Shown piece by piece: positions 37,806 through 51,054 of a DNA stretch of 64,000 nt. A program made the translations under genes and the position numbers. The stretch lies in assembly GCA_015062605.1 (NCBI GenBank), contig SUUI01000005.1:1-64000 (forward strand). Direction: 5' to 3'. Origin of the DNA: Eggerthellaceae bacterium (GTDB lineage: Bacteria > Actinomycetota > Coriobacteriia > Coriobacteriales > Eggerthellaceae). Under the pieces are notes generated by a model that saw nothing but the letters and a program-made list of their open reading frames with translations, had not been told where the DNA came from and did no database searches. The first letter of the stretch is position 1. The number at the start of each line of letters is the position of its first letter.

Positions 37806-38393
37806 CTACACGCTTGCGACGATATCGATCGCGCGTTGATTAAGCTCAACGAACCTCGGCTTCACGCAAACCTCGATGGCATGTCGCAAATCATCGAGAT
37901 TCAAATCGATGACCCCTGCGAAAAGAGCGCTTGCCAGAAGAACCGTATTGAGCACTTTGCGAGATCCGACTGCTTCGGTGATGGCCGCATCGTCGACTAC
38001 GATGAGATGCTCGCCTAATTTCGCATGCAATGATGCAATCACATCATTGGCGCGATACGCCCCACCTGAAAGGGCCACGGTCACCGGTTGTACCGCACTC
38101 GAAGCCGTCACCACGATGCCATCGGGAGCAAGATACTCTAAAGCGCGCGCCGCCTCCGCGGGCTCGAACGCGATGATGAGCTGCGCGGTTTTCTTCGCAA
38201 TCAGAGACGAGTGCACCTGCTCGCCCTCGTTTCCCATGCGAACGTGGCTCGTCACATTACCGCCACGCTGCGCCATGCCGATGGTCTCAGCGGTGCGAAC
38301 CTGCCAGCCCTTGCTCTGAGCTGCCTGGGCAAGCACTTTCGCTGCCAGCACGGTGCCTTGCCCCCCGACTCCCGCAAGAAGGATGTTGATCAT
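37806..38393 (-). CDS. iorB: Indolepyruvate:ferredoxin oxidoreductase, beta subunit
   Basis: 195 residues. Gamma-type POR domain: MINILLAGVGGQGTVLAAKVL, GMAQRGGNVTSHVRMG, AAEAARALEYL. With IorA it oxidises aryl pyruvates from Trp, Phe and Tyr to aryl-acetyl-CoA, CO2 and reduced ferredoxin in the cytosol. The ATG overlaps the iorA stop (ATGA), so the subunits are co-translated; a longer in-frame upstream extension inside iorA is rejected. Confidence 0.95.
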   Translation of the reverse strand: MINILLAGVGGQGTVLAAKVLAQAAQSKGWQVRTAETIGMAQRGGNVTSHVRMGNEGEQVHSSLIAKKTAQLIIAFEPAEAARALEYLAPDGIVVTASSAVQPVTVALSGGAYRANDVIASLHAKLGEHLIVVDDAAITEAVGSRKVLNTVLLASALFAGVIDLNLDDLRHAIEVCVKPRFVELNQRAIDIVASV

Positions 38394-40312
38394 CGCACAC
38401 CCCCTTCGCAGGCGAAAGCAGCGGGTACCTTGAGCGCACCGACTGCGCACAGTTGCACGCACAATCCGCAGCCATTGCATAAGCTCGCATCCACGAACGC
38501 CTGCCCGCGCGATCCGCTCTTTATGCCTTTCGCATCTGGATCGAACCCGATGCCCGGACAGCCGATCTGGGTGATGCAGCGCTTGCAGCCCGTACACAAA
38601 TCCGCATCGACTATAACCTGGGGTTTCGGCTTGATAAGTTGGACGCAAGGCGAACGGAACACGACAGCGCTCGGACCAGCGAAGCCTATCGCTTGAGCTG
38701 CAGCCGCGCATGCCTCGTCGATGTTTAACGGATCCGCCTCCACCACGCATCCAAAGCCGATGGCGCGCAAGAGTTCCGCGATGTCGATACCCTGATGATT
38801 GGCCCCCATAAGCGTCACTCCGGTTCCTGGATGCGGCTGGGAGCCCGTCATGGCCGTGGTCGCATTGTCGAGAACGACCACGGTGATGTCATGTTGGTTG
38901 TACACGGCGTTGACCACGCCGGTAAGGCCGCTTGCAAAGAAGGTGGAATCCCCTACGAAGGCGATGTTCTTCTTGTCGGGTTGCGTTACCGCAAAACCCT
39001 GCGCCATCGTGATGCCCGCACCCATGCACAAACAGGTATCGATGGCATCGAGCGGCATCGCATTGCCTAAGGTATAGCAACCGATATCGCCGCAGAGAAT
39101 CGCCGGGGTCTTGCCAAGCGCTTTTTTCACGGCATAGAAGCTGCCGCGATGCGGGCATCCTGCACACAAAACGGGAGGACGAACCGGCAGGGGCTCATCG
39201 AACGTAAGCGGCGAGGCTTCATCGGAAAGCGAAAGGCCCAAAAAGGACTGAATCCGAGCGAAGGCATCGTCGACGGAGTTCTCGCCCCGTGCGAGCGCAT
39301 CCCCTGAAAGCTTGCCGTGCACTTCAAGCGGCAGATGCTCTCGGCCGGCAAGTGCCGCGAGCTCGTCCTCTATGACGTAATCGAGCTCTTCAAGAACCAA
39401 AACCTTCTCAAGCGGTTTGACGAACGATGAAACGCGTTTTTGCGGGAACGGATATGGCGTTCCCACCTGCAAAAACGATATCGGCGGAAGAGAGATGCCC
39501 TGCCTTTTTGCTGAAGCCTCGAGCATGCTTAACGCCTCGCGGGCATACGCCGCGGAGACTCCTCCTGCAACGATGCCGACCTTGGCAGCATCGCCAGCAA
39601 TGGCTTCAGTAGGATTGAAGCCTGCATACGGCTCTTCTGCTCCAAACGTATCGGCAATGCGCACAAGCCGCTCGTTGATCTCAGCATGTGCCTGATATGA
39701 GCGCCCTGGAAAGATCACCCAACGAGCATCGCGCACGAACCCTTCTTCGGGAATCGCACGGGCAATCGTCTGTTCGGGAATGTCGAAGAACGCCGAAGCA
39801 TGGCAGATGCGCGTGGTTGGACGCACGATAACGGGAGTCTTATAACGCTCGGATAGCTCGAATGCTGCCTGCATCATGGCAAAGCCCTGTTCAGGCGTTG
39901 CCGGATCGAGCACCGGAACTTTAGCGAATGCCGCAAAGCGGCGCGTATCCTGTTCGGTTTGCGACGAAATCGGACCCGGATCATCAGCGACAAACAGCAC
40001 GCAACCGCCCTTCACGCCGATGTAGTTGAGGCATAAAAGCGGATCGGAAGCGACATTGAGCCCCATCTGCTTGCATGTAAACAGCACGCGCGCTCCGCTA
40101 TACGCCGCGCCGGCAACCAATTCGAGGGCGGCCTTCTCGTTGGCAGACCATTCGACATGCACGCCCTGGGCAACGCCTGAGGCGCGCAGCTTCGCAATGG
40201 TCTCGATTACTTCAGAGGAAGGCGTTCCGGGATATCCCGCTGCCACGTTCACGCCAGCCTGTAAGGCCGCATACGCGAACGCCTCGTTTCCCATCAGCAG
40301 TTTCTTCGGCAT
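38390..40312 (-). CDS. iorA: Indolepyruvate:ferredoxin oxidoreductase, alpha subunit
   Basis: 640 residues. N-terminal pyrimidine domain (LLMGNEAFAYAALQAGVNVA; GYPGTPSSEVIE), central TPP-binding domain (CGDIGCYTLGNAMP, then GDSTFFASGLTGVVNAVYNQ), and two 4Fe-4S clusters at the C-terminus (CTGCKRCITQIGC and CNGCGLCVQLC). It feeds electrons from aromatic amino-acid fermentation to ferredoxin. AAGGATCG ribosome-binding site; 35 bp after purE. Confidence 0.96.
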   Translation of the reverse strand: MPKKLLMGNEAFAYAALQAGVNVAAGYPGTPSSEVIETIAKLRASGVAQGVHVEWSANEKAALELVAGAAYSGARVLFTCKQMGLNVASDPLLCLNYIGVKGGCVLFVADDPGPISSQTEQDTRRFAAFAKVPVLDPATPEQGFAMMQAAFELSERYKTPVIVRPTTRICHASAFFDIPEQTIARAIPEEGFVRDARWVIFPGRSYQAHAEINERLVRIADTFGAEEPYAGFNPTEAIAGDAAKVGIVAGGVSAAYAREALSMLEASAKRQGISLPPISFLQVGTPYPFPQKRVSSFVKPLEKVLVLEELDYVIEDELAALAGREHLPLEVHGKLSGDALARGENSVDDAFARIQSFLGLSLSDEASPLTFDEPLPVRPPVLCAGCPHRGSFYAVKKALGKTPAILCGDIGCYTLGNAMPLDAIDTCLCMGAGITMAQGFAVTQPDKKNIAFVGDSTFFASGLTGVVNAVYNQHDITVVVLDNATTAMTGSQPHPGTGVTLMGANHQGIDIAELLRAIGFGCVVEADPLNIDEACAAAAQAIGFAGPSAVVFRSPCVQLIKPKPQVIVDADLCTGCKRCITQIGCPGIGFDPDAKGIKSGSRGQAFVDASLCNGCGLCVQLCAVGALKVPAAFACEGGVR

Positions 40313-40347
40313 GGCGATCCTTCGTTCTTTGTGATGCTCACACGCGA

Positions 40348-40815
40348 TTAGCGAGCCATCTGCTCCTTGAAATCGACAATCGTGCGATACATCTCCACGT
40401 CGCCGGTTCCGAGCATTTGCACCGCTAAGATGGCAGCGTTCTTAGCTCCGTTGATGGCAACGCACGCAACGGGCACACCACTCGGCATCTGAACCATCGA
40501 AAGCAGCGAGTCCAACCCGCCCAAATCGCTCGTCTTCATCGGAACGCAAATGACCGGATTGGCCGTATATGCCGCAACCACGCCGCCCAAATGGGCAGCT
40601 TTGCCCGCTGCAGCGATGATGACGCGGATGCCGCGATCGTATGCGCTTTGCGCCCACTCGTGTACTTCGGCGGGTTTGCGATGCGCACTCGCGACCTTCA
40701 CCTCATAGGGCACGCCGAAAGCATCGAGCTGCGCCATGCACGGCTCCATCGCCGGCATATCCGATTCGGATCCCATGATGATTCCGACAATCGGCGTTCC
40801 ATTTTGATCAGCCAT
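40348..40815 (-). CDS. purE: N5-carboxyaminoimidazole ribonucleotide mutase
   Basis: 155 residues, class I PurE: GIIMGSESDMPAMEPC, VASAHRKPAEVHEWA with the catalytic His, GKAAHLGGVVAAYT. It isomerises N5-CAIR to CAIR in purine synthesis. No purK or other purine gene is nearby, and the gene is wedged between the MoxR-methyltransferase gene (29 bp upstream) and iorA (35 bp downstream). Confidence 0.95.
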   Translation of the reverse strand: MADQNGTPIVGIIMGSESDMPAMEPCMAQLDAFGVPYEVKVASAHRKPAEVHEWAQSAYDRGIRVIIAAAGKAAHLGGVVAAYTANPVICVPMKTSDLGGLDSLLSMVQMPSGVPVACVAINGAKNAAILAVQMLGTGDVEMYRTIVDFKEQMAR

Positions 40816-40844: not shown

Positions 40845-43553
40845 TTACAAGCTGCGATCGACCGCGCCGCCATTGAAGATGGCCCGCGGCAGAACGTTCG
40901 CCTTCGGCTTAGCAACATGCGCTACCACGGCGCGGAATTCCACATCCTCGTCGCTCTCAACCGCATCAACAGTATACCCTTGGATATACCCGTCTGTCGG
41001 GTTGACCTTGTGGACGTCACGATAACTCAAACCGACCATGGAGAATCCCGCTTCAGCAAGCATAGCCTCGAATTCCTCTTGGCTTAATGCCGATTGCACG
41101 CTATTACCCATCGCGCGGGCTTTAGCAACGACATCCTTATCGCGAGGACCCGTCGCAACAACCGTTTCGCAAATCAGCATGCCACCGAAACGCAGAACGC
41201 GGAAAATCTCGCGAATCACCTGCTTCGTATCATATGCCAAGTTCAGGATGCTATTGGTAAATACAAGGTCCATGCTGTTTTCACGCAGGCCAATCGATGC
41301 GAGATCTTCAGGGAAGCCCCAATGGAATTCCATGTTGCTCTCGGGAAGGCCGGAATCCTGCCAAGCACGATCCATGTCGCGCATTGCCTCGTTGATATGC
41401 TCACGCGACCAATCGATGCCTACGACATGACCTGTAATGCCCACTCGATCCGAAAGCTTGAAAACACCTCGACCGCGACGGCAACCGATGTCGAGGATCA
41501 TCTTGCCCGTCAAGAACTCGGGAAGCGTCATTTTGCACATGCTATTGAAACCGTACTCGAAGGTCTTGTTAGTGTAATAGGATACGAGTTTGTCGTGATA
41601 TGCCTGTGTGCCGACCGCAGCTTCCGGTTCGGGGTCGCTCACAAGCTCAGCCGTCTTTGCTGTCGCAGGTTCTTCCGCCTCTGGTTCGGAGAACTCCGCG
41701 ACTATCTCATCGACTGCCGCCTTCACTTCGTAAACCGCTTCGGCAATTATCTCTTCGATCTTCGCGCTTTCAGGAGAAATAACCTCATCGGCGACAGACG
41801 CCATGACGGTTTCCACCTCATCGGCCTCAGGCGCTTTTACCGCAACAGGCGCTGCAGGTACAGGCGGCACTGGATTTTGCTTACGATCTTGCGAGGCCTC
41901 TTCTTCTCTCTCTTCGCTCGAAGGCGCTGCATGGCGAGCATGGTTCGCCGTTTTGCCCGGCGAAAGCGAAATCGGTACGACGGTCATGCCAGACCCTCCT
42001 TGAGAACCCAAGCCCAGCGGGTCTTGCTTCGCCTCAGCCGTGGCCGCGATACGCTCCATAGGAAGTTCGCTGATGCGCTCGGCGATCTTCTGACGGTTAT
42101 CCTCGACTAAAAGATCCTGATTGTGCGCGAAGTAGCTGTCGCTTCCGAAACGATTGAGGAACCTCATCGTCGTGGTGCGCGCGGTCAGCTCGGTCACGAA
42201 CACTAACAGCTCGCGCTTCTGGTTGAAGGCCTCATCAATGAACGCGAACGCGTTATCCAAACGAAGTTGCGCATCCTCGATATCCTGGTTCAGGCTCTCA
42301 GCGTGGTGACGATACACCTGGTTGATCGTTGCGTAATCCTGATAGTTCTCCCCCGCAGCCGTTGTCGACATCATCTCGCGCAAGACGCCGTCGGCAAGTC
42401 GTAAGCTGCGCGTCGCTTGAGCAGATGCGGTGCCGATGTCCTTGCTATGGGCGAGCCTGCCCTCTATCTGCTGGGCTGCATTGCTCACATAAGCGAACAG
42501 GTCATCACCCGTGCGCATCTTCTCCTTCAAGTCGGAAAGGCTCTCGCGCACCATGTTGAGCGCTTCATCCTTCTTCACGATTTCGAACATGTCGCCGCCC
42601 AACGAATCAAGCAACAGTCCAAGCAAAGCCAGGCGCTCGTCGAAACGCGCAGCTTGCGCACGCTCCACGATGGACGCGTCCACATTGCCTGCCAGGATTT
42701 CATCGATCTGATAGTCCGACCGGTATTTGTTGAACAAGTCATAGTACGCTGCGAACCGCTCGGCAATCTCCGCATCTTGCAGGAATTGTTCGACAAGAGC
42801 CGCGTTCACCGGCGTTCCCTGCTGCTCGAACAGCGTGATGGTCTTAGCCAAGTCCTCCCAGCCGCGAGCCGTAACAAAGCTCTTGCCACCAAGCTTCGCC
42901 TCGACCATATAGAAATCGCTATGGCGAACCTCGAGATACGAGGTGACCGCCGGGTGCAAGCCTTGGTCGAGCGCGTAACTCTTCCATGCGGCATAATCCG
43001 GCTCGATGTCGATACGACGCAGACGATCCATTGTGACGATATCGAACTCATGCACCGAGCGGTTATATTCGGGAGGATTGCCCGCGCACACCACGATCCA
43101 ATCCTCGGGAATGCTATGACGGCCGAAGGTTTTGAATTGCAGGAACTGCAACATGCTCGGATAAAGCGTCTCCGAAACGCAGTTGATTTCATCGAGGAAA
43201 AGGATGCCCTTTTTAAGCCCCGTCTTCTCCATGTAATCGTACATGGATGCGATGATCTCGCTCATGGTGTATTCGGAGACATCGAATTCCACATCACCGT
43301 ACGTCTTGTGCTCGATGAACGGCAATCCGAGTGCGCTTTGGCGCGTATGATGGGTCATCGAATAGGAGACGAGTCCGATGCCCATCTCGGATGCCACCTG
43401 CTCGACGATTGCCGTCTTGCCGATGCCAGGTGCTCCAATCAAGAACAACGGGCGCTGGTGTGCGATGTCGATGCAATAGGTGCCGGTGTCGTCCTTGCTC
43501 ATGTACGCACGGACGGTTTCGGTGATTTGGTTCTTTGCTTCAGAGATGTTCAT
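40845..43553 (-). CDS. MoxR-type AAA+ ATPase fused to a SAM-dependent methyltransferase
   Basis: 902 residues. Residues ~30-270: AAA+ domain with Walker A GAPGIGKT (40-47), Walker B ILFLDEIN (~117-124) and sensor AGNPPEYN, like MoxR/DUF ATPases that work with VWA proteins. Residues ~270-510: helical region. Residues ~535-655: acidic Ala/Glu/Pro linker. Residues ~660-880: class I methyltransferase with ILDIGCRRGRG and VVGIDWSREHI, most like small-molecule (ArsM/UbiE-like) enzymes. The fusion is unusual. Last gene of a three-gene unit with the VWA and LRR proteins; 6-bp gap to the VWA gene. AAGGAG ribosome-binding site. Function unknown; ATP-driven remodelling tied to methylation is inferred. 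Confidence 0.85.
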   Translation of the reverse strand: MNISEAKNQITETVRAYMSKDDTGTYCIDIAHQRPLFLIGAPGIGKTAIVEQVASEMGIGLVSYSMTHHTRQSALGLPFIEHKTYGDVEFDVSEYTMSEIIASMYDYMEKTGLKKGILFLDEINCVSETLYPSMLQFLQFKTFGRHSIPEDWIVVCAGNPPEYNRSVHEFDIVTMDRLRRIDIEPDYAAWKSYALDQGLHPAVTSYLEVRHSDFYMVEAKLGGKSFVTARGWEDLAKTITLFEQQGTPVNAALVEQFLQDAEIAERFAAYYDLFNKYRSDYQIDEILAGNVDASIVERAQAARFDERLALLGLLLDSLGGDMFEIVKKDEALNMVRESLSDLKEKMRTGDDLFAYVSNAAQQIEGRLAHSKDIGTASAQATRSLRLADGVLREMMSTTAAGENYQDYATINQVYRHHAESLNQDIEDAQLRLDNAFAFIDEAFNQKRELLVFVTELTARTTTMRFLNRFGSDSYFAHNQDLLVEDNRQKIAERISELPMERIAATAEAKQDPLGLGSQGGSGMTVVPISLSPGKTANHARHAAPSSEEREEEASQDRKQNPVPPVPAAPVAVKAPEADEVETVMASVADEVISPESAKIEEIIAEAVYEVKAAVDEIVAEFSEPEAEEPATAKTAELVSDPEPEAAVGTQAYHDKLVSYYTNKTFEYGFNSMCKMTLPEFLTGKMILDIGCRRGRGVFKLSDRVGITGHVVGIDWSREHINEAMRDMDRAWQDSGLPESNMEFHWGFPEDLASIGLRENSMDLVFTNSILNLAYDTKQVIREIFRVLRFGGMLICETVVATGPRDKDVVAKARAMGNSVQSALSQEEFEAMLAEAGFSMVGLSYRDVHKVNPTDGYIQGYTVDAVESDEDVEFRAVVAHVAKPKANVLPRAIFNGGAVDRSL

Positions 43554-43559
43554 AAACGA

Positions 43560-45257
43560 TTACTCCTTTAACGTAGCGATATCGTCTTCATCCAAGATTA
43601 TCTTCAAGGCCCATGGTGGAACACGGGGGTGATTCACTTTCGGGTCTAAGAACACGAATGCCGTATCATAGTCAGGCGCCTTCTCCGGGAAGATGCCGTA
43701 GCCATCAGTGAAGTAGATCAATCCTCTCAGATTGATGAATTCCTTTTTCTCGATGAGTTTATCCACATACTCGAACACAGGTCTGAAATCGGTTCCTCCG
43801 AAGCCGCGGATTTGAACGTTGTCAGCGTATTCGCTCATCTCGTCGAGCGAAGTGATGACCGTATCCAGCTGAATTCGTGCATCGCACTGGATAATGTGGA
43901 TATTCACGCGATGGTCGAACTGATTGGCATCGCCAAGAATCTCGCACGTACGCGTCACGAAGGCTTTCACCAAGTCTCCCGAGCATGAGCCAGACGTGTC
44001 GATGGCGATGGCGAATTCACGCACGCGGTTGCATTCTTGATATTCGAGCGGCTCGATGAGCGGCATGTTGCCGTACAGGTCAAGCCCGTACGTATAGAAG
44101 ATGTAGTCGAACTCGTCATGGTTGACTTGGATGTCTTCCGCCAATACGCAGAAACGCTGAAGGAAGTCGCGATAGTTCACGCGACGACGGTTGGCAACGG
44201 CAAGATTCAGCAGAAACATGCCGGCTTCATCACCCATCTGGTGCGCAAAGGTCTCGAGGTCAACCTCCAACTGCTTTGCGATCTCCTCCCACTGTCGTGC
44301 GATTTCCTCTTCGTCGAAGTCCTCTTCATCCTCATCCTCGTCGAAGCCGCCATTAAGTGCATCGAGCACGTCCTCGAGAGAAAGCTCGCCATCGTTCTCG
44401 GCCGCATTCTCCCTCGCATCGTCTTCGTCTTGAGAGGAGTCTGAGTCCTGGCTTTCCTGATTGGGAGAAGCATCGTCATCTTGCGATCCTTGACCGCCAT
44501 CGCTCTCTTCGGCCGTATCGACGGATAGTTCTTTGACTTCCTGGTTTTGGATTGGATCTTCATCGGGATCGGGTTCGCCATCGGGATTCGGTTCGCCCTT
44601 TTTCGCGTTATTCGCCCAATAATCATGGGAATCGCGGATGAAGATCTCCTCAAGCTGACGCATGTACAGAGGGCTCAGCCCCATCTCCTTCGCTGTGGCG
44701 AAGCTGCTTCCGGCATCCGCGAAAGCGCGGTAAAGGTTCTGCGGTGTGATGCGTCCGATATGCTCGGATAAATACTCGATTGCCTCTTTGGCTGCTACAT
44801 CGTATGCGCCAGGGAAACGCCGTGAGCACATCTCGACAGCGATGCTCTCAACCACTATGTCGCACGCAAGACCCCACGAATAGGCATCCGTGTGCTCGAC
44901 GTCGAGCGGATGGCGGAACACGCAATGCAAAAGCGTGTGGAGATAGTCGCGAATCGTCTCGTTCGGAGAACCCTCGAAACGCATGATGAGCGCAGAAGGA
45001 GAGAAGAACATATCGCGCCCGTTGCTGCCAAGTGCCACATACGAGTAAGCGATGCGGAATGGCAGCTGCCACAAGGCGCGATCGAGGAAGCGGAACGCCA
45101 TCATGAGCGAGATGCGGCAATCTTTGAGGATCTCGACGCACAATTCGAGAATGCGTTCATCCAGCTCTGCAGACCCCACGATGTAATCGTGGTCGGTGCG
45201 TTTGAGCACAAACGAAGGGTCTTGCATTGAGGTCGTATTGCCGAGATCCGATGCCAT
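43560..45257 (-). CDS. VWA domain protein, DUF2201/metallopeptidase-like N-terminus
   Basis: 565 residues. Residues ~1-190 resemble the zincin-like domain of the DUF2201 family, but the expected HExxH reads LHTLLHCVFRHP, so the catalytic Glu is lost. Residues ~205-310 are very acidic (poly Asp/Glu/Gln/Ser). The C-terminal VWA domain has a MIDAS motif IDTSGSCSG (~residue 420), plus GGTDF and YFTDGYG. Such VWA proteins partner with MoxR ATPases as metal-dependent adaptors. The start lies 1 bp after the LRR stop; the MoxR gene follows after 6 bp, indicating a stable operon. Confidence 0.85.
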   Translation of the reverse strand: MASDLGNTTSMQDPSFVLKRTDHDYIVGSAELDERILELCVEILKDCRISLMMAFRFLDRALWQLPFRIAYSYVALGSNGRDMFFSPSALIMRFEGSPNETIRDYLHTLLHCVFRHPLDVEHTDAYSWGLACDIVVESIAVEMCSRRFPGAYDVAAKEAIEYLSEHIGRITPQNLYRAFADAGSSFATAKEMGLSPLYMRQLEEIFIRDSHDYWANNAKKGEPNPDGEPDPDEDPIQNQEVKELSVDTAEESDGGQGSQDDDASPNQESQDSDSSQDEDDARENAAENDGELSLEDVLDALNGGFDEDEDEEDFDEEEIARQWEEIAKQLEVDLETFAHQMGDEAGMFLLNLAVANRRRVNYRDFLQRFCVLAEDIQVNHDEFDYIFYTYGLDLYGNMPLIEPLEYQECNRVREFAIAIDTSGSCSGDLVKAFVTRTCEILGDANQFDHRVNIHIIQCDARIQLDTVITSLDEMSEYADNVQIRGFGGTDFRPVFEYVDKLIEKKEFINLRGLIYFTDGYGIFPEKAPDYDTAFVFLDPKVNHPRVPPWALKIILDEDDIATLKE

Positions 45258-45258
45258 G

Positions 45259-47208
45259 CTACAGATCCTCCACCACAGCACGCTTCGCCGAGAAACGCTC
45301 ATGCTGCTCGTTGAGCAGATAGCTCACGAGCTTGACATCTTTCTGCTCGCCGAGCAAGTCGATGATCCTTGCAATATTCTGCTCGTTGATGAAGCCAAGA
45401 TCGACCAGCATCTTGATGAAGTGGATATCGTTCTGCCTGCTGCATGCGATGATGAATTCATCCAAGTGCCGCTCAACGCTCTTCACGAACATGTCGCGAC
45501 CCGATTCGTCAAGGAAACGTCCGTCAGTCAGGCGCAGAAGGATCAATCCCGTACGCTCGATGGTCTGATAGCAATGGCGAATGCTCAAGTCGGCAAAGGC
45601 GAAGATGGTCGCCGGATCCATTATCGAGGTGTTCTTCTTCACGATTCCATCGGGGGTCTTCCCTCGCGGAATCAAATCCTCATCGCCCGCACCCGCAGTC
45701 GTCGGGCCACCGAATGCTTGAGAGAAGCACTGCCCGCTATACGAGGAAGACGGGAAATGCGATGAGGGGAAATACGCCTCGTATCGATGCTCGGCACCGT
45801 CAACATCGTTTGTCACGATGGTCACGCGAGGGACCACCGCCGAGATGAAGAATGCACCGAGCCCAACACCGAGAATGTCGGTATGAACGGTCAAATGGGT
45901 TATCGAATCAACGCCTCCGAAGCAGAAGCCGTCGATATATATGACGCTTCGAGGAATCACCACGTCGGTCTGCGGCCCAACGAACACGATGGCGTGGTCG
46001 CCCTCCTCGTCGCGGCGGCATAGGATCCCCGACTCTATATAGAACAACTCGTTTTCGGGATCGACCTCGATATCATGTAAGGTCGGTTGCGAAAGCGAGC
46101 TGCCGCGGCTACAGGTGGAAAGCCCGTACATGCCCAGATACCGGAACCCCGCTGGAATGCGGAAGTTCGTGAGCGCTGTGCTGCGGAACGCCTCCTCGCC
46201 GATTGCGGTTAGGCTGTCAGGAACGACGATGTATTTAAGGCTTCGGCAAAACTTGAACGAAGCGTTGCCGATTGTCTGCAAGCCCTCAGGTAACACGAGG
46301 CTTGCAAGCGAGGGATGATACAGAAACGCGCGATCGGCAATGCGAAGCGTGCCGGGCATCACGATGTAATTGACGACTGAAAGCCCGAGCATCTCAACGA
46401 GGACAAGACCTTTGGTCGCCTTGCGGTACAAACCACCTTGGACGTCTGCTATAAACGGTGAGCCGAATCCAAACGAAAGCGCTCCGAAAAGACCGTTATC
46501 GGCAAGCGGTGTCTGTCTGAACACCTCCCTGCCCATTTTGATAACAGAACCGGGAATCCGGATGCTTTCGATTGCGGTTCCGCAGAAAGCTCCTTCACCG
46601 ATGGAGGCAAGACCGTCATTGAGGTTGATGGTCTTAAGGTTCGCACAGTGGAAGAAGGCCTTCATCCCAAGACTACGCAAGGAAGGCGGCGCATCGAAAG
46701 ACTTTATCTTCGTATTCGAGAATGCGAATCCGCCGATGCTTTCTAGTTCTTGGCTTAAACCTATCGCTTCAAGATGCAGACAACGATCGAATGCATGCCC
46801 TCCTAAATCCCGCACATGCCTGGGAAGCACCACTGAATTGAGGTTTTGCGAATGCGAACACACATGAGGAGCAAGCACAGTGACGATGCAACCATCGATC
46901 TCATCGGGGAAAATGACTGCTTCACAATCGGTTATGCACGCATCGATGCACACAGTGCCATCTTCGAGCACGTGCGCCTCATAGCGCACGCCCGCATCGT
47001 CGACTGTGAATTTCGAACCCCGATCGGCTTTGTCGACCTGCGTATGCACCTTGGATGCTGAAGCGCCAGGAGGCGCAACGGAAATGTTGTTCACAGATAA
47101 CGCTTTGGCGGATTCACGCGTGACGAGCTCCTTGATGCCGATGCCACGCACAAGCTGCGCAGCAGCAGAGGCCTGGCTGAACTGTTTATCCAAACCGTTT
47201 TCCACCAT
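45259..47208 (-). CDS. Cytoplasmic BspA-type leucine-rich repeat protein
   Basis: 649 residues. No signal peptide or membrane helix is visible. Residues ~60-500 carry BspA/LRR_5 repeats (e.g. LESIGGFAFSNTKIKSFD, LASIGEGAFCGTAIESIRIP, LTAIGEEAFRSTALTNFRIP). Residues ~530-649 form a helical, ankyrin-like region (NDIHFIKMLVDLGFI). BspA-like LRRs normally occur on surface adhesins, so an intracellular version next to VWA and MoxR genes is notable; it could be the recognition part of the module. AAGGGGAG ribosome-binding site. First gene of the triad, 63 bp downstream of hypD. Confidence 0.85.
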   Translation of the reverse strand: MVENGLDKQFSQASAAAQLVRGIGIKELVTRESAKALSVNNISVAPPGASASKVHTQVDKADRGSKFTVDDAGVRYEAHVLEDGTVCIDACITDCEAVIFPDEIDGCIVTVLAPHVCSHSQNLNSVVLPRHVRDLGGHAFDRCLHLEAIGLSQELESIGGFAFSNTKIKSFDAPPSLRSLGMKAFFHCANLKTINLNDGLASIGEGAFCGTAIESIRIPGSVIKMGREVFRQTPLADNGLFGALSFGFGSPFIADVQGGLYRKATKGLVLVEMLGLSVVNYIVMPGTLRIADRAFLYHPSLASLVLPEGLQTIGNASFKFCRSLKYIVVPDSLTAIGEEAFRSTALTNFRIPAGFRYLGMYGLSTCSRGSSLSQPTLHDIEVDPENELFYIESGILCRRDEEGDHAIVFVGPQTDVVIPRSVIYIDGFCFGGVDSITHLTVHTDILGVGLGAFFISAVVPRVTIVTNDVDGAEHRYEAYFPSSHFPSSSYSGQCFSQAFGGPTTAGAGDEDLIPRGKTPDGIVKKNTSIMDPATIFAFADLSIRHCYQTIERTGLILLRLTDGRFLDESGRDMFVKSVERHLDEFIIACSRQNDIHFIKMLVDLGFINEQNIARIIDLLGEQKDVKLVSYLLNEQHERFSAKRAVVEDL

Positions 47209-47271: not shown

Positions 47272-48366
47272 TTAATAATATCGATAATATGCCGCGCATG
47301 AGCCTTCGGAGGACACCATGCAGGGTCCGACAGGATTCTCGGGCGAACATACCGTACGGAATAAAGGACAATCACTCGGGGTCATGATACCGCGCAAAAC
47401 GTCACCGCAGCGACAACCCTTTGGGTCTTGCGTGGGTTCGACAACAGGTTTGAAGCGACGCACCGCATCGAAATCGGCATATTGCTCACGGATGCGATAC
47501 CCCGAACCATCGATCATGCCTAGCCCCCGCCATAGGGCTGGGCAAGTTTCGAACACCTCATCGATAGCTGCGCGCGCAATGGGATTACCCTGCGGCATCA
47601 CGCCGCGAGCATAGGCGATCTCGATTTCAGCACGTCCCTCATGCAGTTGACGCAGAAGCATCGTGATGCCCTGCAATACATCAACCGCCTCGAAGCCCGT
47701 GATCACACCGGGAATACCATACTGCTCCGCTAAGAAACGATACGGTTCGATGCCGATGATGGTGCTTACATGGCCAGGAAGGATGAGGGCATCGAGCTTG
47801 AGCTTCGGATCGTTGATGATGGCCTCGAGCGCGCCTGGCATGTTCTTATGGGCTGCAAACACGCTGAAATTGGTTAGTTTCGCATCGGCGGCACGCTTGA
47901 TAGCGCGTGCAACGAGCGGCGTCGTGGTCTCGAACCCGACGCCGACGAATACGACTTGCCGTTCAGGATGGTCCTGAGCATATTTAAGCGCATCGAGCGG
48001 CGAATACACGATCTCGACTGAGCGGCCTTTTGCTTGCTCCTTGAGAAGCGAGGATGTCGAACCGGGCACCCGTGTCATATCACCGAAAGTCGTGATGGTA
48101 ACCCCGTCGATCCGCGCAAGCGCGATGACCGTATCGATATCGCGATTCGATGTCACGCACACTGGGCATCCTGGACCAGAGCTCAAACGAATGCCGACTG
48201 GCATCAAGTCACGGATGCCGTTGCGAGCGATGGCGACCGTATGCGTGCCGCACACTTCCATGAGCGTCGCCTGTTTCGGCGCGTATGCCTCGATGGCAGA
48301 GATAAGCCCCCGAGCAAGCGTCGGGTCTTTGAAAGATGCGAAGGGGGTATCGAGAGCGCTCATCAT
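47272..48366 (-). CDS. hypD: [NiFe]-hydrogenase maturation protein HypD
   Basis: 364 residues. Conserved ATLMEVCGTHTVAIARNG, GPGCPVCVT, GFETTTPL, GHVSTIIG, and a C-terminal 4Fe-4S region with CRCGDVLRG, GPCMVSSEGSCAAYY. With HypC it assembles the Fe(CN)2CO unit of the hydrogenase active site. It begins ATGATG (48366 or 48363), 8 bp after hypC. No hydrogenase structural genes are in the window. Confidence 0.96.
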   Translation of the reverse strand: MMSALDTPFASFKDPTLARGLISAIEAYAPKQATLMEVCGTHTVAIARNGIRDLMPVGIRLSSGPGCPVCVTSNRDIDTVIALARIDGVTITTFGDMTRVPGSTSSLLKEQAKGRSVEIVYSPLDALKYAQDHPERQVVFVGVGFETTTPLVARAIKRAADAKLTNFSVFAAHKNMPGALEAIINDPKLKLDALILPGHVSTIIGIEPYRFLAEQYGIPGVITGFEAVDVLQGITMLLRQLHEGRAEIEIAYARGVMPQGNPIARAAIDEVFETCPALWRGLGMIDGSGYRIREQYADFDAVRRFKPVVEPTQDPKGCRCGDVLRGIMTPSDCPLFRTVCSPENPVGPCMVSSEGSCAAYYRYY

Positions 48367-48374
48367 GACGGCCT

Positions 48375-48614
48375 TTATGCGAAGAGGTCTTCGCCGGCAA
48401 GCTGAGGCAGCTCCTTGATGAGTTCAATGGTCTCGAGAGCGTAATCTGCATCGACGACCTCGATTGCGAAACCCGCATGAACGAGCACGTAATCGCCTAA
48501 ACCGGCTTGAGGCGTAAGATCGAGTGCAACCTCCCGGGTAACGCCGAGAATATCGACCGTCGCAAGACTATCCTCACCGATCTCGGTGATCTTTCCCGGT
48601 ATCGCAAGGCACAT
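48375..48614 (-). CDS. hypC: Hydrogenase maturation chaperone HypC
   Basis: 79 residues starting MCLAIPGKITEI with the invariant Cys2 that carries the Fe intermediate, followed by VDILGVTREVALDLTPQAGLGDYVLVHAGFA in family order. The start is fixed by the invariant MCLAIPG. Sits between hypF (31-bp gap) and hypD. Confidence 0.96.
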   Translation of the reverse strand: MCLAIPGKITEIGEDSLATVDILGVTREVALDLTPQAGLGDYVLVHAGFAIEVVDADYALETIELIKELPQLAGEDLFA

Positions 48615-48645
48615 AGAGCTAATCCTTCTATCTTGTATTCCGTAC

Positions 48646-51054
48646 TTATTCTCGACCCTGACGATTGTAACGTACAACCGCCTGCCCGAATGATATGCAT
48701 CCGTCATGGGGCGGCAAGTCCCTGCCAACCGCCACCGTGAAACCTGCTCGGGCAAGTGCGGTAAGAGCGTGCTCGGTAAGATAACGGTTGAGGAACACGC
48801 CTCCCGAGAGCACCACGGTACGAATGCCATAGAGCATATCTACAAGCTGCGCGCCTTGCACGATGGCATTGACGAACGCATCGTGGAAGCGCCGCGCGAT
48901 TATCGATACGGGGACACCCGCATACGCATCATCAAGCAGCGCCTTGAAAACCCCTGCTGCATCGAAAAGCATGACCGAGGTTTCCTGAGCGGTACTGGAA
49001 TCGGTAGCGGTGTTCTTCTGGACTTCGATGGTATAGCGATCGTTATCGTCCGTTTCTTTTGCACAGTCCTCGGATTCGCACATGGCCGCTTCGAGAAGAA
49101 TCGCAGGCTCCCCTTCATAGGCAGGGTCTACGCAGATGCCCAAGAGCGCGCTTGCCGCATCGAAGAGACGGCCGACCGAAGACGTATATGGAGTATTCAA
49201 GCCACGCTCGATCATCTGATCGAGCAATGCGGGCATGTCGCCAAGAGAAGAAAGCGCCTTTATCGCAAACGGATGCTCTAACAGATCGAACGCCCATAAA
49301 ACCCCATACGCCATGCGCAAAGGTTCGCGGATGCATGCTGCGCCACCAGGCATGGGGACATATGCGAAGTTAGCGAATCGTTCGTAATCTTTATCGTTGG
49401 CGAGAAGGATCTCTCCTCCCCAAATCGCACCATCGGGACCATACCCTGTGCCATCGAACGCGATGCCGCATACGGGATCTTTAATACCGTGCTCACCGAG
49501 TACGCTCGCGATATGCGCGTGATGGTGCTGCACTAACAAAAGCGGCATGCCCTGTTCATGCGCCCATTTCGTGGAAAGGTACTCGGGATGCAGGTCGCAC
49601 ACCAATTCCTTTGGTTGCACTTGGAAAAGCGTTTGGAATCGATTCTTCGCCTCAAGCCATGCATCGAACGTTTCGGCATGCTCCAAATCGCCGATGTGCT
49701 GCGACACGAACACCTCGCTACCGCGCACCATGCTGAACGTATTATTCTGCTCGGGCCCCGTGCAGAGAAACTCCGCTCTAGCCGCATCGTCTGGGGCAAG
49801 CTTCAAGGGAACGGGACTATAGCCTCGCGCCCGCCTCACCATCTGTATGGCTTCTTCGCCATCCGCATCGATTACGCGGACGACGGAGTCGTCGTAGCGC
49901 GCGCGAATCGGCCGATTGTTTCCTAAAAAGGCATCCGCAATGCCGCTAAGCGCCTCACGAGCATGGTCATCATCGACCTCAATCGGGGCATCGTGGACAT
50001 TACCCGATGTCATGACGAGCATTTGCCCACCTGCTTCTGCGAAATCATGCATGAGCAGATGCTGCAACGGCGTGTAAGGGAGCATGACGCCGAGTTCGGG
50101 CAGATGGTCTGCCAAACCTTGGGCAAACCGTGCGCCGGGAAGCTTGCGCAACAGCACGATAGGATGCTGCGCCCCGCCTAAGACGCGCCTCTCGGCATCA
50201 TTGATGCGGCAGAACTTCTGTATGGTTGCAATATCTTCCATCATGACCGCGAAAGGCTTGCCCTCGCGGCGTTTCCGTGCACGCAAGGTCGCTACCGCCG
50301 AATCGTTTTCGGCATCGCATACAAGGTGGAAGCCTCCGAGACCCTTGACTGCCAAGATGCCGCCTTCGAGCAGCAGGTGCACACATCGGGCGATGATCGC
50401 ATCGCTTTGCTCTCGCGTATGCCCCCATATGGTCTCTGAATCGATGCCGTCTTCTGCATCCTTGCATATCGACGGATTCTCCCAATACGAAATCGACGGC
50501 CCGCATTCGAAGCACGCATCAGGCTGCGCGTGGAAACGACGGTCCGTCGGGTCGGCATACTCGGCTGCGCACGCTTCACACATCGCAAAGCCTGCCATCG
50601 ACGTACGCGACCGGTCATAAGGCAATTCTTCGATAATCGTGAAACGCGGACCGCAATTCGTGCAGTTGATGAACGGATAGCGATATCGTCGATCGTTCGG
50701 GTCGAATAATTCACGTACGCAGTCATCGCACGTTGCAAGATCAGGGGATACCAGCGTTACCTTATCAGTTGCCTGCTCGTCGGAGAAGCGTATTGTAAAT
50801 CCCTCGCAGTCTTCGAGCGGTACTTCCTTTAAGTCGATCTCTGTTATGCGCGCAGCTTCGGGATGGTTCTGCGCGATCTCCATCACGAATTCGTCGACAA
50901 GACGCTCGTCACCTTCCGCATGGATATCGACGCCTTCCTTGGAATTGAGGACCCATCCGCTGATAAGATACCTTTTCGCAAGACGGTAGACAAAGGGGCG
51001 GAAACCCACCCCCTGCACTATTCCTTGAACTTGGATGCGAAGCGCGGTTCTCAT
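48646..51054 (-). CDS. hypF: Carbamoyltransferase HypF
   Basis: 802 residues. N-terminal acylphosphatase domain (QGIVQGVGFRPFVYRLA), two zinc fingers (CDDCVRELFD; CTNCGPRFT; CEACAAEY; CFECGP), YrdC-like domain (~200-390) and Kae1/HypF C-terminal domain with HHHAHIASVLGEHG. It makes the thiocarbamate used for cyanide ligands of hydrogenase. Its ATG overlaps the pgi stop (ATGA), so it is coupled to a glycolytic gene. hypE, hypA and hypB are not in the window. Confidence 0.96.
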   Translation of the reverse strand: MRTALRIQVQGIVQGVGFRPFVYRLAKRYLISGWVLNSKEGVDIHAEGDERLVDEFVMEIAQNHPEAARITEIDLKEVPLEDCEGFTIRFSDEQATDKVTLVSPDLATCDDCVRELFDPNDRRYRYPFINCTNCGPRFTIIEELPYDRSRTSMAGFAMCEACAAEYADPTDRRFHAQPDACFECGPSISYWENPSICKDAEDGIDSETIWGHTREQSDAIIARCVHLLLEGGILAVKGLGGFHLVCDAENDSAVATLRARKRREGKPFAVMMEDIATIQKFCRINDAERRVLGGAQHPIVLLRKLPGARFAQGLADHLPELGVMLPYTPLQHLLMHDFAEAGGQMLVMTSGNVHDAPIEVDDDHAREALSGIADAFLGNNRPIRARYDDSVVRVIDADGEEAIQMVRRARGYSPVPLKLAPDDAARAEFLCTGPEQNNTFSMVRGSEVFVSQHIGDLEHAETFDAWLEAKNRFQTLFQVQPKELVCDLHPEYLSTKWAHEQGMPLLLVQHHHAHIASVLGEHGIKDPVCGIAFDGTGYGPDGAIWGGEILLANDKDYERFANFAYVPMPGGAACIREPLRMAYGVLWAFDLLEHPFAIKALSSLGDMPALLDQMIERGLNTPYTSSVGRLFDAASALLGICVDPAYEGEPAILLEAAMCESEDCAKETDDNDRYTIEVQKNTATDSSTAQETSVMLFDAAGVFKALLDDAYAGVPVSIIARRFHDAFVNAIVQGAQLVDMLYGIRTVVLSGGVFLNRYLTEHALTALARAGFTVAVGRDLPPHDGCISFGQAVVRYNRQGRE

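Follow-up and report, generated by a model that had tools for sequence, protein, structure and literature searches.

A conserved gene set for a repeat protein, a VWA protein and a MoxR-type ATPase in gut anaerobes, with a methyltransferase joined to the ATPase in Coriobacteriia

Three closely packed genes in an Eggerthellaceae genome encode an LRR protein, a VWA protein and a MoxR-type ATPase fused to a methyltransferase. Do they form a multi-part system, which of the parts belong together, and what might such a system do? The window, that is the whole stretch of DNA analysed, comprises 64,000 nucleotides. Its minus-strand ORFs confirmed the packing reported in the preliminary description of the locus: the genes lie head-to-tail, with gaps of 1 bp (LRR/VWA) and 6 bp (VWA/MoxR). 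The 1-bp gap applies to the VWA start listed in Table 1, as the first ATG, at 45302, would overlap the LRR gene. The genes hypF-hypC-hypD are found upstream on the same strand (63 bp between hypD and the LRR gene), and purE-iorA-iorB downstream, also on the same strand, 29 bp past the MoxR gene; this position of the triad had not been mentioned before. Promoter and terminator scans of the locus gave scores no higher than those of shuffled sequence.

Table 1. Genes and domains of the triad and its surroundings, with positions in the window.
Feature	Position	Strand	Basis or remark
LRR gene	45259-47208	-	649 aa ORF
CTA (C-terminal adaptor domain), acidic tail ...LLNEQHERFSAKRAVVEDL	45262..45591	-	HMM match, residues 564-642
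VWA gene	43560-45257	-	565 aa from ATG at 45257
DUF2201_N metallopeptidase-like helical domain	44604..45194	-	HxxxH at residues 107-111
VWA domain, MIDAS D420-T-S-x-S424	43575..44042	-	homologue motif counts and alignment
MoxR-methyltransferase gene	40845-43553	-	902 aa ORF
MoxR-type AAA+ domain followed by helical C-terminal region (residues 1-500)	42054..43553	-	Pfam, alignment, motif counts
Ala/Glu-rich linker, residues 501-655	41589..42053	-	least conserved segment
Predicted methyltransferase domain, class I SAM-dependent, residues 656-902	40848..41588	-	Pfam, structure match, alignment
hypD	47272..48366	-	Pfam, TIGR00075; context, outside the conserved system
hypC and hypF	48378..51054	-	Pfam; context
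purE, iorA, iorB	37806..40815	-	Pfam and NCBIfam; downstream context

Pfam families were assigned to all three proteins. The LRR protein matches LRR_5 (E 2e-48) and consists of a disordered N-terminus (residues 1–62), a BspA-type solenoid (approximately 65–480), a disordered linker and a helical C-terminal domain. Its AlphaFold model has a mean pLDDT of 81, with LRR blocks mostly above 90, a low-confidence linker at residues 486–527 and helical hairpins at 532–642; the best PDB matches found by Foldseek are the BspA-like LRR proteins 4cp6 and 4gt6. No hydrophobic signal or anchor stretch was detected in the first 60 residues.

The VWA protein matches DUF2201 (1.7e-12) and DUF2201_N (3e-5) and ends with a VWA domain. 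With its AlphaFold model as query, Foldseek returned VWA/MIDAS domains including 8ql1, the midasin MIDAS bound to a UBL partner. The MIDAS motif IDTSGSCSG is intact, in agreement with the earlier reading; DTSGS or DTSAS is found in 76 of 107 homologues, and DTSES in others as shown by alignment. DUF2201_N is a putative metallopeptidase by its Pfam name, and residues H107, H111, W128, D133 and E137 are invariant. The catalytic Glu of HExxH, however, is present in 0 of the 107 homologues, which makes a protease role unlikely.

The 902-residue protein is matched by AAA/AAA_5 at residues 35–173 and by Methyltransf_31 (1.5e-19) at residues 683–836. Its Walker A (GAPGIGKT), Walker B (LFLDEIN) and sensor (GNPPEYN) motifs are intact, and among 116 homologues, some of which are truncated, they are kept in 109, 115 and 108 (as GNPxEYN) respectively. 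The MoxR clade is defined by a helix-2 insert. In the alignment, the stretch from Walker A to Walker B includes a hairpin-like segment (PFIEHKTYGDVEFDVSEYT); the Pfam assignment is AAA/AAA_5, not AAA_3. The linker is 27–81% identical where the AAA part is 78–99% identical.

Relatives of this MoxR number at least 585 in public genomes, mainly from gut Clostridia and Coriobacteriia; the best 80 of these at least 585 come from Lachnospiraceae, Oscillospiraceae, other Clostridia, Eggerthellaceae and one MAG, which bears the title Deltaproteobacteria but is placed in Myxococcota by the tree tool. The VWA protein is present in 28 of 61 relatives, and strong MoxR matches fall in the same 28-genome set. 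Local HMMs run on the fetched loci found VWA adjoining MoxR in most of them, and an LRR gene at most 2.5 kb from MoxR in 39 of 41 coriobacterial and 30 of 36 clostridial loci. The density of LRR bases falls from 0.47 at 2–3 kb from MoxR to approximately 0.01 at 5–10 kb in Coriobacteriia, and from 0.31 to 0.03 over the same distances in Clostridia; LRR-type proteins in general occur in 42/61 relatives. The homologues are thus mostly found together and not apart and, with LRR and VWA neighbours kept beside MoxR in both groups, the proposal of a real multi-part system holds: MoxR-type AAA+ protein, VWA protein and cytoplasmic repeat protein are a conserved gene set.

The repeat part itself varies. 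In clostridial operon-like runs LRR_5 is found in 59 of 87 genes, and the remainder include ankyrin repeats, DUF4132 and DUF6273. To judge from these assignments, the LRR is one of several apparently interchangeable repeat types. Across all compared pairs it has diverged further than the AAA and VWA cores. Five loci (L137, L139, L150, L151 and L184) have at least four LRR genes arrayed around a single MoxR-VWA pair, up to eight or nine of them in L137; in several of these arrays the helical domain described below is internal and followed by further LRRs. A 119-aa protein of no assigned family (‘C2’) is apparently fused to the LRR N-terminus in two loci (L108:5271-7907, L112:3907-6579), and is elsewhere a separate gene before the LRR gene.

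The constant element, absent from the preliminary description, is a C-terminal helical domain of approximately 100 residues common to the LRR, ankyrin and DUF4132 partners, which we refer to as CTA. With few exceptions it forms the end or an internal part of the repeat protein, whether the repeat part is LRR, ankyrin, DUF4132 or other. A Pfam search gave no convincing family match for CTA. An HMM trained exclusively on clostridial C-termini (the final 100 residues of LRR, ankyrin, DUF4132 and similar proteins) was used to search 9,196 ORFs; its coriobacterial matches were 57 LRR-type ORFs and one other, and residues 564–642 of the window LRR protein were matched with an E-value of 9e-8. The final profile (A5), which includes six coriobacterial rows, detected CTA in 28/28 relatives with VWA-MoxR and in 0/33 without (Fisher test), but as the 61 relatives are kin and not independent, P-values for co-occurrence overstate independence. 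In 33 of 36 clostridial loci MoxR has a CTA protein no more than 3.5 kb away. Unlinked LRR-CTA paralogues were also seen (G001:C5, G041:C3, G011:C12 and L102).

Within CTA, a helix with the variants LLxYK, YLLEVKR and YLMEWHR is followed by a tail (FDFDL, DFSL, RFAL, EFTLD, ADYEL or VEDL), which is short and ends in L/I. The tail pattern, a post hoc one composed from sequences already inspected, was found for Coriobacteriia in 43/47 LRR proteins as against 20/452 other ORFs; for Clostridia the figures are 24/56 operon LRRs against 15/322 others, and some clostridial CTAs are internal or have no tail. The third component with its constant domain is an obligatory partner of the VWA-MoxR pair, and the core unit consists of CTA-bearing repeat protein, VWA and MoxR. 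Of the four-part set first proposed as a unit, the linkage of MoxR, VWA and LRR is kept, whereas the LRR appears to be exchangeable and the methyltransferase an addition in Coriobacteriia.

Is the fusion then a local accident of one lineage, and the gene set with it? The fused MoxR-methyltransferase is an open frame in approximately 26 coriobacterial loci from several families, and the fused MoxRs group together in a single supported clade (27 fused among 35 sequences; label clustering reached in 0/500 shuffles). Among the unfused members of this clade are deeper branches, a nested subclade and a gene cut off by its contig. The fusion was found only in Coriobacteriia, and its absence from Clostridia would fit an accident, as would the split frame of one relative; the core set, however, is present in Clostridia and in the Myxococcota-classified MAG. 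An accident is therefore rejected as highly improbable, contrary to the possibility left in the preliminary description that relatives might lack the fusion. The split frame (L066:4120-6851, in the draft genome G001 of the same genus) consists of two overlapping frames divided near the linker, and reflects a frameshift or an assembly error.

Clostridial relatives have no linked methyltransferase, so this domain is not needed for the core function and is, as far as its distribution indicates, a lineage-specific add-on of Coriobacteriia. It is a separate gene directly after MoxR in L132 and in G021/L194, lies near MoxR in L111 and L128, and in other cases is unlinked; the unlinked genes have no common neighbour pattern beyond close relatives. 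At 100 bits or more, a threshold set post hoc, the methyltransferase was detected in 24 of the 28 genomes that have the system and in none of the other 33 (Fisher test). The best-scoring matches checked in genomes without the system are ordinary ArsM-like enzymes with the canonical GCGxGRD.

In this family motif I is altered to [CG]CRxG[KR]G (D688-IGCRRGRG in the window protein). The acidic residues D714, E749 and D762 are invariant (45/45), which makes SAM binding by the fused domain plausible. The closest solved structures are those of ArsM (8xt7 and 4fr0, E 4e-22). The arsenic-binding cysteines of ArsM are C72, C174 and C224 of CmArsM; by alignment the first is kept and the other two are Ser and Asn. 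The likeness to ArsM thus lies in the fold and the first cysteine, and the difference in the replacement of the central Gly of motif I by Arg and in the Ser/Asn ligands. Since two of the three arsenic ligands are lost, the domain is not an ArsM and arsenic methylation was rejected as its reaction; with the NCBIfam ArsM models the window methyltransferase scored far below the cut-off.

How could these parts work together? The reading that we prefer, and consider probable though by no means settled, is a ternary remodelling machine of the MoxR-vWA kind, with interchangeable repeat-protein receptors docked via CTA and a lineage-specific methyltransferase. The repeats would recognise a target, and CTA with its short C-terminal tail would dock the receptor onto the VWA-MoxR complex. 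An acidic residue of the tail plausibly reaches the metal of the VWA MIDAS, by analogy with midasin, the MIDAS of which binds an acidic residue of its substrate; clostridial CTAs that are internal or have no tail count against this. ATP hydrolysis by MoxR would then remodel or release the receptor–target complex, and in Coriobacteriia the SAM methyltransferase fused to the motor could modify target or receptor once engaged. Docking via CTA is the simplest model that may be drawn from MoxR-vWA machines, in which MoxR spends ATP on remodelling the complex formed when vWA captures a peptide (PMC7159879). The faster divergence of the LRR and the presence of several receptors per motor may fit recognition, without proving it; faster divergence is also expected from relaxed constraint.

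Defence, metalloenzyme maturation and protein quality control are candidate outputs of such a machine. A conflict system of the MoxR-vWA ternary kind, in which the repeat protein would sense an invader and MoxR-vWA would set a threshold, with the response left to the methyltransferase or to an unlinked effector, is a tentative possibility. The ternary layout of constant domain and variable module parallels the published VMAP/iSTAND systems, but the VWA protein has no effector domain of known kinds and PADLOC models gave weak Walker-region matches only (IetA, 21 bits). Patchy spread (28/61 relatives), multiple paralogous copies and an LRR diverging faster than the AAA and VWA cores would suit defence, yet those two parts are highly conserved and the surroundings in the window are house-keeping genes. 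SbcCD is found next to two clostridial copies and an HEPN_Swt1 protein next to a third (among L124, L134 and L145), although defence-gene neighbours are few in a raw tally without background rate. There is no close plasmid homologue, and phage matches are short unverified faecal contigs; both facts weigh against defence, and on them a plasmid or phage origin was rejected. The phage-titled sequences are MT835935.1 (L187) and six other unverified human-faecal ‘Bacteriophage sp.’ records, which encode this MoxR; the LRR-VWA-MoxR-like genes of L187 are most likely bacterial DNA, and the records probably represent bacterial contamination. A wider formulation is that gut anaerobes share a widespread NLR-like system for innate immunity or surveillance, with interchangeable LRR and ankyrin receptors plugging via CTA into one MoxR-vWA motor and the motor-fused methyltransferase as effector in Coriobacteriia; we regard it as speculative and rather doubtful. 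A different proposal dispenses with recognition: CTA would be a handle by which a dedicated chaperone folds, assembles or disassembles LRR and ankyrin solenoids as its clients. The bearers of CTA have only a repeat solenoid or DUF4132 in common and several CTA proteins exist per motor, as a client relation would predict; relatives that have no such motor, however, often have LRR_5-type proteins, so a solenoid by itself does not depend on it, and the methyltransferase add-on is left unexplained. We consider this chaperone distinctly unlikely.

CoxD/CoxE, NorQ/NorD and RavA/ViaA are MoxR-vWA pairs of the cofactor-insertion type, and a house-keeping machine of this sort had been named as the alternative for the locus. 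The repeat protein would bind an apoenzyme, which MoxR-VWA would open for cofactor insertion. Adjacency to hypFCD in three genomes of the window genus, and at approximately 3 kb from an unfused copy in G022 of another genus, points this way but weakly: no hyp genes lie near the triad in any of the other loci examined, and hypD, present in 55/61 relatives with or without the triad, is near-universal and so uninformative. Hydrogenase maturation was accordingly rejected as the common function, and hypFCD as neighbours count for no more than a weak hint. The G022 copy (L188, G022:C31) is a second triad, at that distance from a divergent transaldolase/PGI-hypF-hypC-hypD run resembling the one in the window. 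Presence of moaA-like genes in 60/61 relatives does not discriminate either, and a link to the Mo cofactor on this basis was rejected. The triad follows a conserved molybdopterin-oxidoreductase/ferredoxin-like pair in approximately 14 coriobacterial loci and Mo-hydroxylase-like genes lie near three clostridial copies, but most clostridial copies have no metalloenzyme neighbour, no such linkage is common in Clostridia, and these genomes have many Mo-oxidoreductase partners of the same type. The pair was seen upstream of the triad in L068, L069 (15948-18707), L070, L075, L076, L105, L107, L114 and L115. The molybdopterin oxidoreductase carries the sequence SPPGSHPVGYG...NAMN, and the ferredoxin-like protein is 119 aa long (YTYFSGNHAAEIACKEE). 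This small protein has close homologues (at least 60% identity) in 14/61 genomes, and the MoxR-methyltransferase fusion is present in 13 of the 14. In both members the Fe–S cysteines of relatives are replaced, which makes an Fe–S-free molybdenum enzyme pair possible and is puzzling under a maturation model. Taken with its evidence on both sides, cofactor insertion appears doubtful as the role of this set.

The preferred reading, a CTA-docked ternary remodelling machine, was compared with known systems. With BspA-like LRR proteins (PcpA 4cp6 and others) the window protein shares the LRR fold, but it has no signal-like N-terminal stretch and carries CTA at its C-terminus. The MoxR-vWA couple is shared with CoxD/CoxE, NorQ/NorD and RavA/ViaA, and some copies lie near hydrogenase or molybdenum enzyme genes; the set differs in its extra conserved repeat receptor and, apparently, in having no stable linkage to one enzyme. 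The E. coli yehI-yehL-yehP genes (DUF4132, MoxR, VWA) encode the same three part classes, and some clostridial third components are DUF4132 proteins, but the Yeh proteins have no CTA. Between the Yeh MoxR and VWA proteins and those of the window the HMM comparison was not significant, hhalign gave probabilities of 11% and 0.2%, and only Walker A and generic VWA motifs matched; a relation was rejected as not detectable beyond common motifs. In E. coli K-12 the region yehF-yehQ (L204:475-14945) is a cluster of WGR, DUF4132, MoxR and VWA genes.

A literature search, the scope of which excluded most subscription journals and preprints, gave no description of the LRR/VWA/MoxR(-methyltransferase) set; within that scope the statement that no system with this exact set has been characterised stands. 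The closest parallel is the MoxR-vWA ternary conflict systems, with VMAP, iSTAND, FtsH or beta-propeller third components (Kaur et al., 2020; PMC7159879) and, further, iSTAND2 and TERNS3 (PMC8195603). The main text of PMC7159879 contains no DUF2201, ankyrin or methyltransferase, and LRR occurs solely in a reference title. In Pfam searches the LRR and VWA proteins did not match VMAP, iSTAND, FtsH or beta-propeller domains, and the bpMoxR model scored 21.3 bits against a cut-off of 27; by these searches the parts correspond to no third component of the published systems. Shared with them are a MoxR AAA+ protein, a vWA with MIDAS, an obligatory third protein composed of a constant domain and a variable part, and several copies per genome. 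The third component here is CTA with LRR, ankyrin or DUF4132 repeats; the VWA protein combines DUF2201 with a metallopeptidase-like N-terminal domain and has no C-terminal effector; and the gene order is CTA-VWA-MoxR or VWA-MoxR-CTA. The VMAP, iSTAND, FtsH and beta-propeller subtypes are enriched in multicellular bacteria. The relatives found here are mostly gut anaerobes, Clostridia and Coriobacteriia, with a methyltransferase fused to MoxR in one lineage. How such motors choose their partners is a question for MoxR-vWA machines generally, on which CTA and its tail offer a concrete handle. Beside the published ternary systems there is thus a conserved three-part set, probably a remodelling machine, in hundreds of gut anaerobes, joined here to a methyltransferase, and a lineage in which a MoxR-vWA motor carries its own presumed modifying enzyme.
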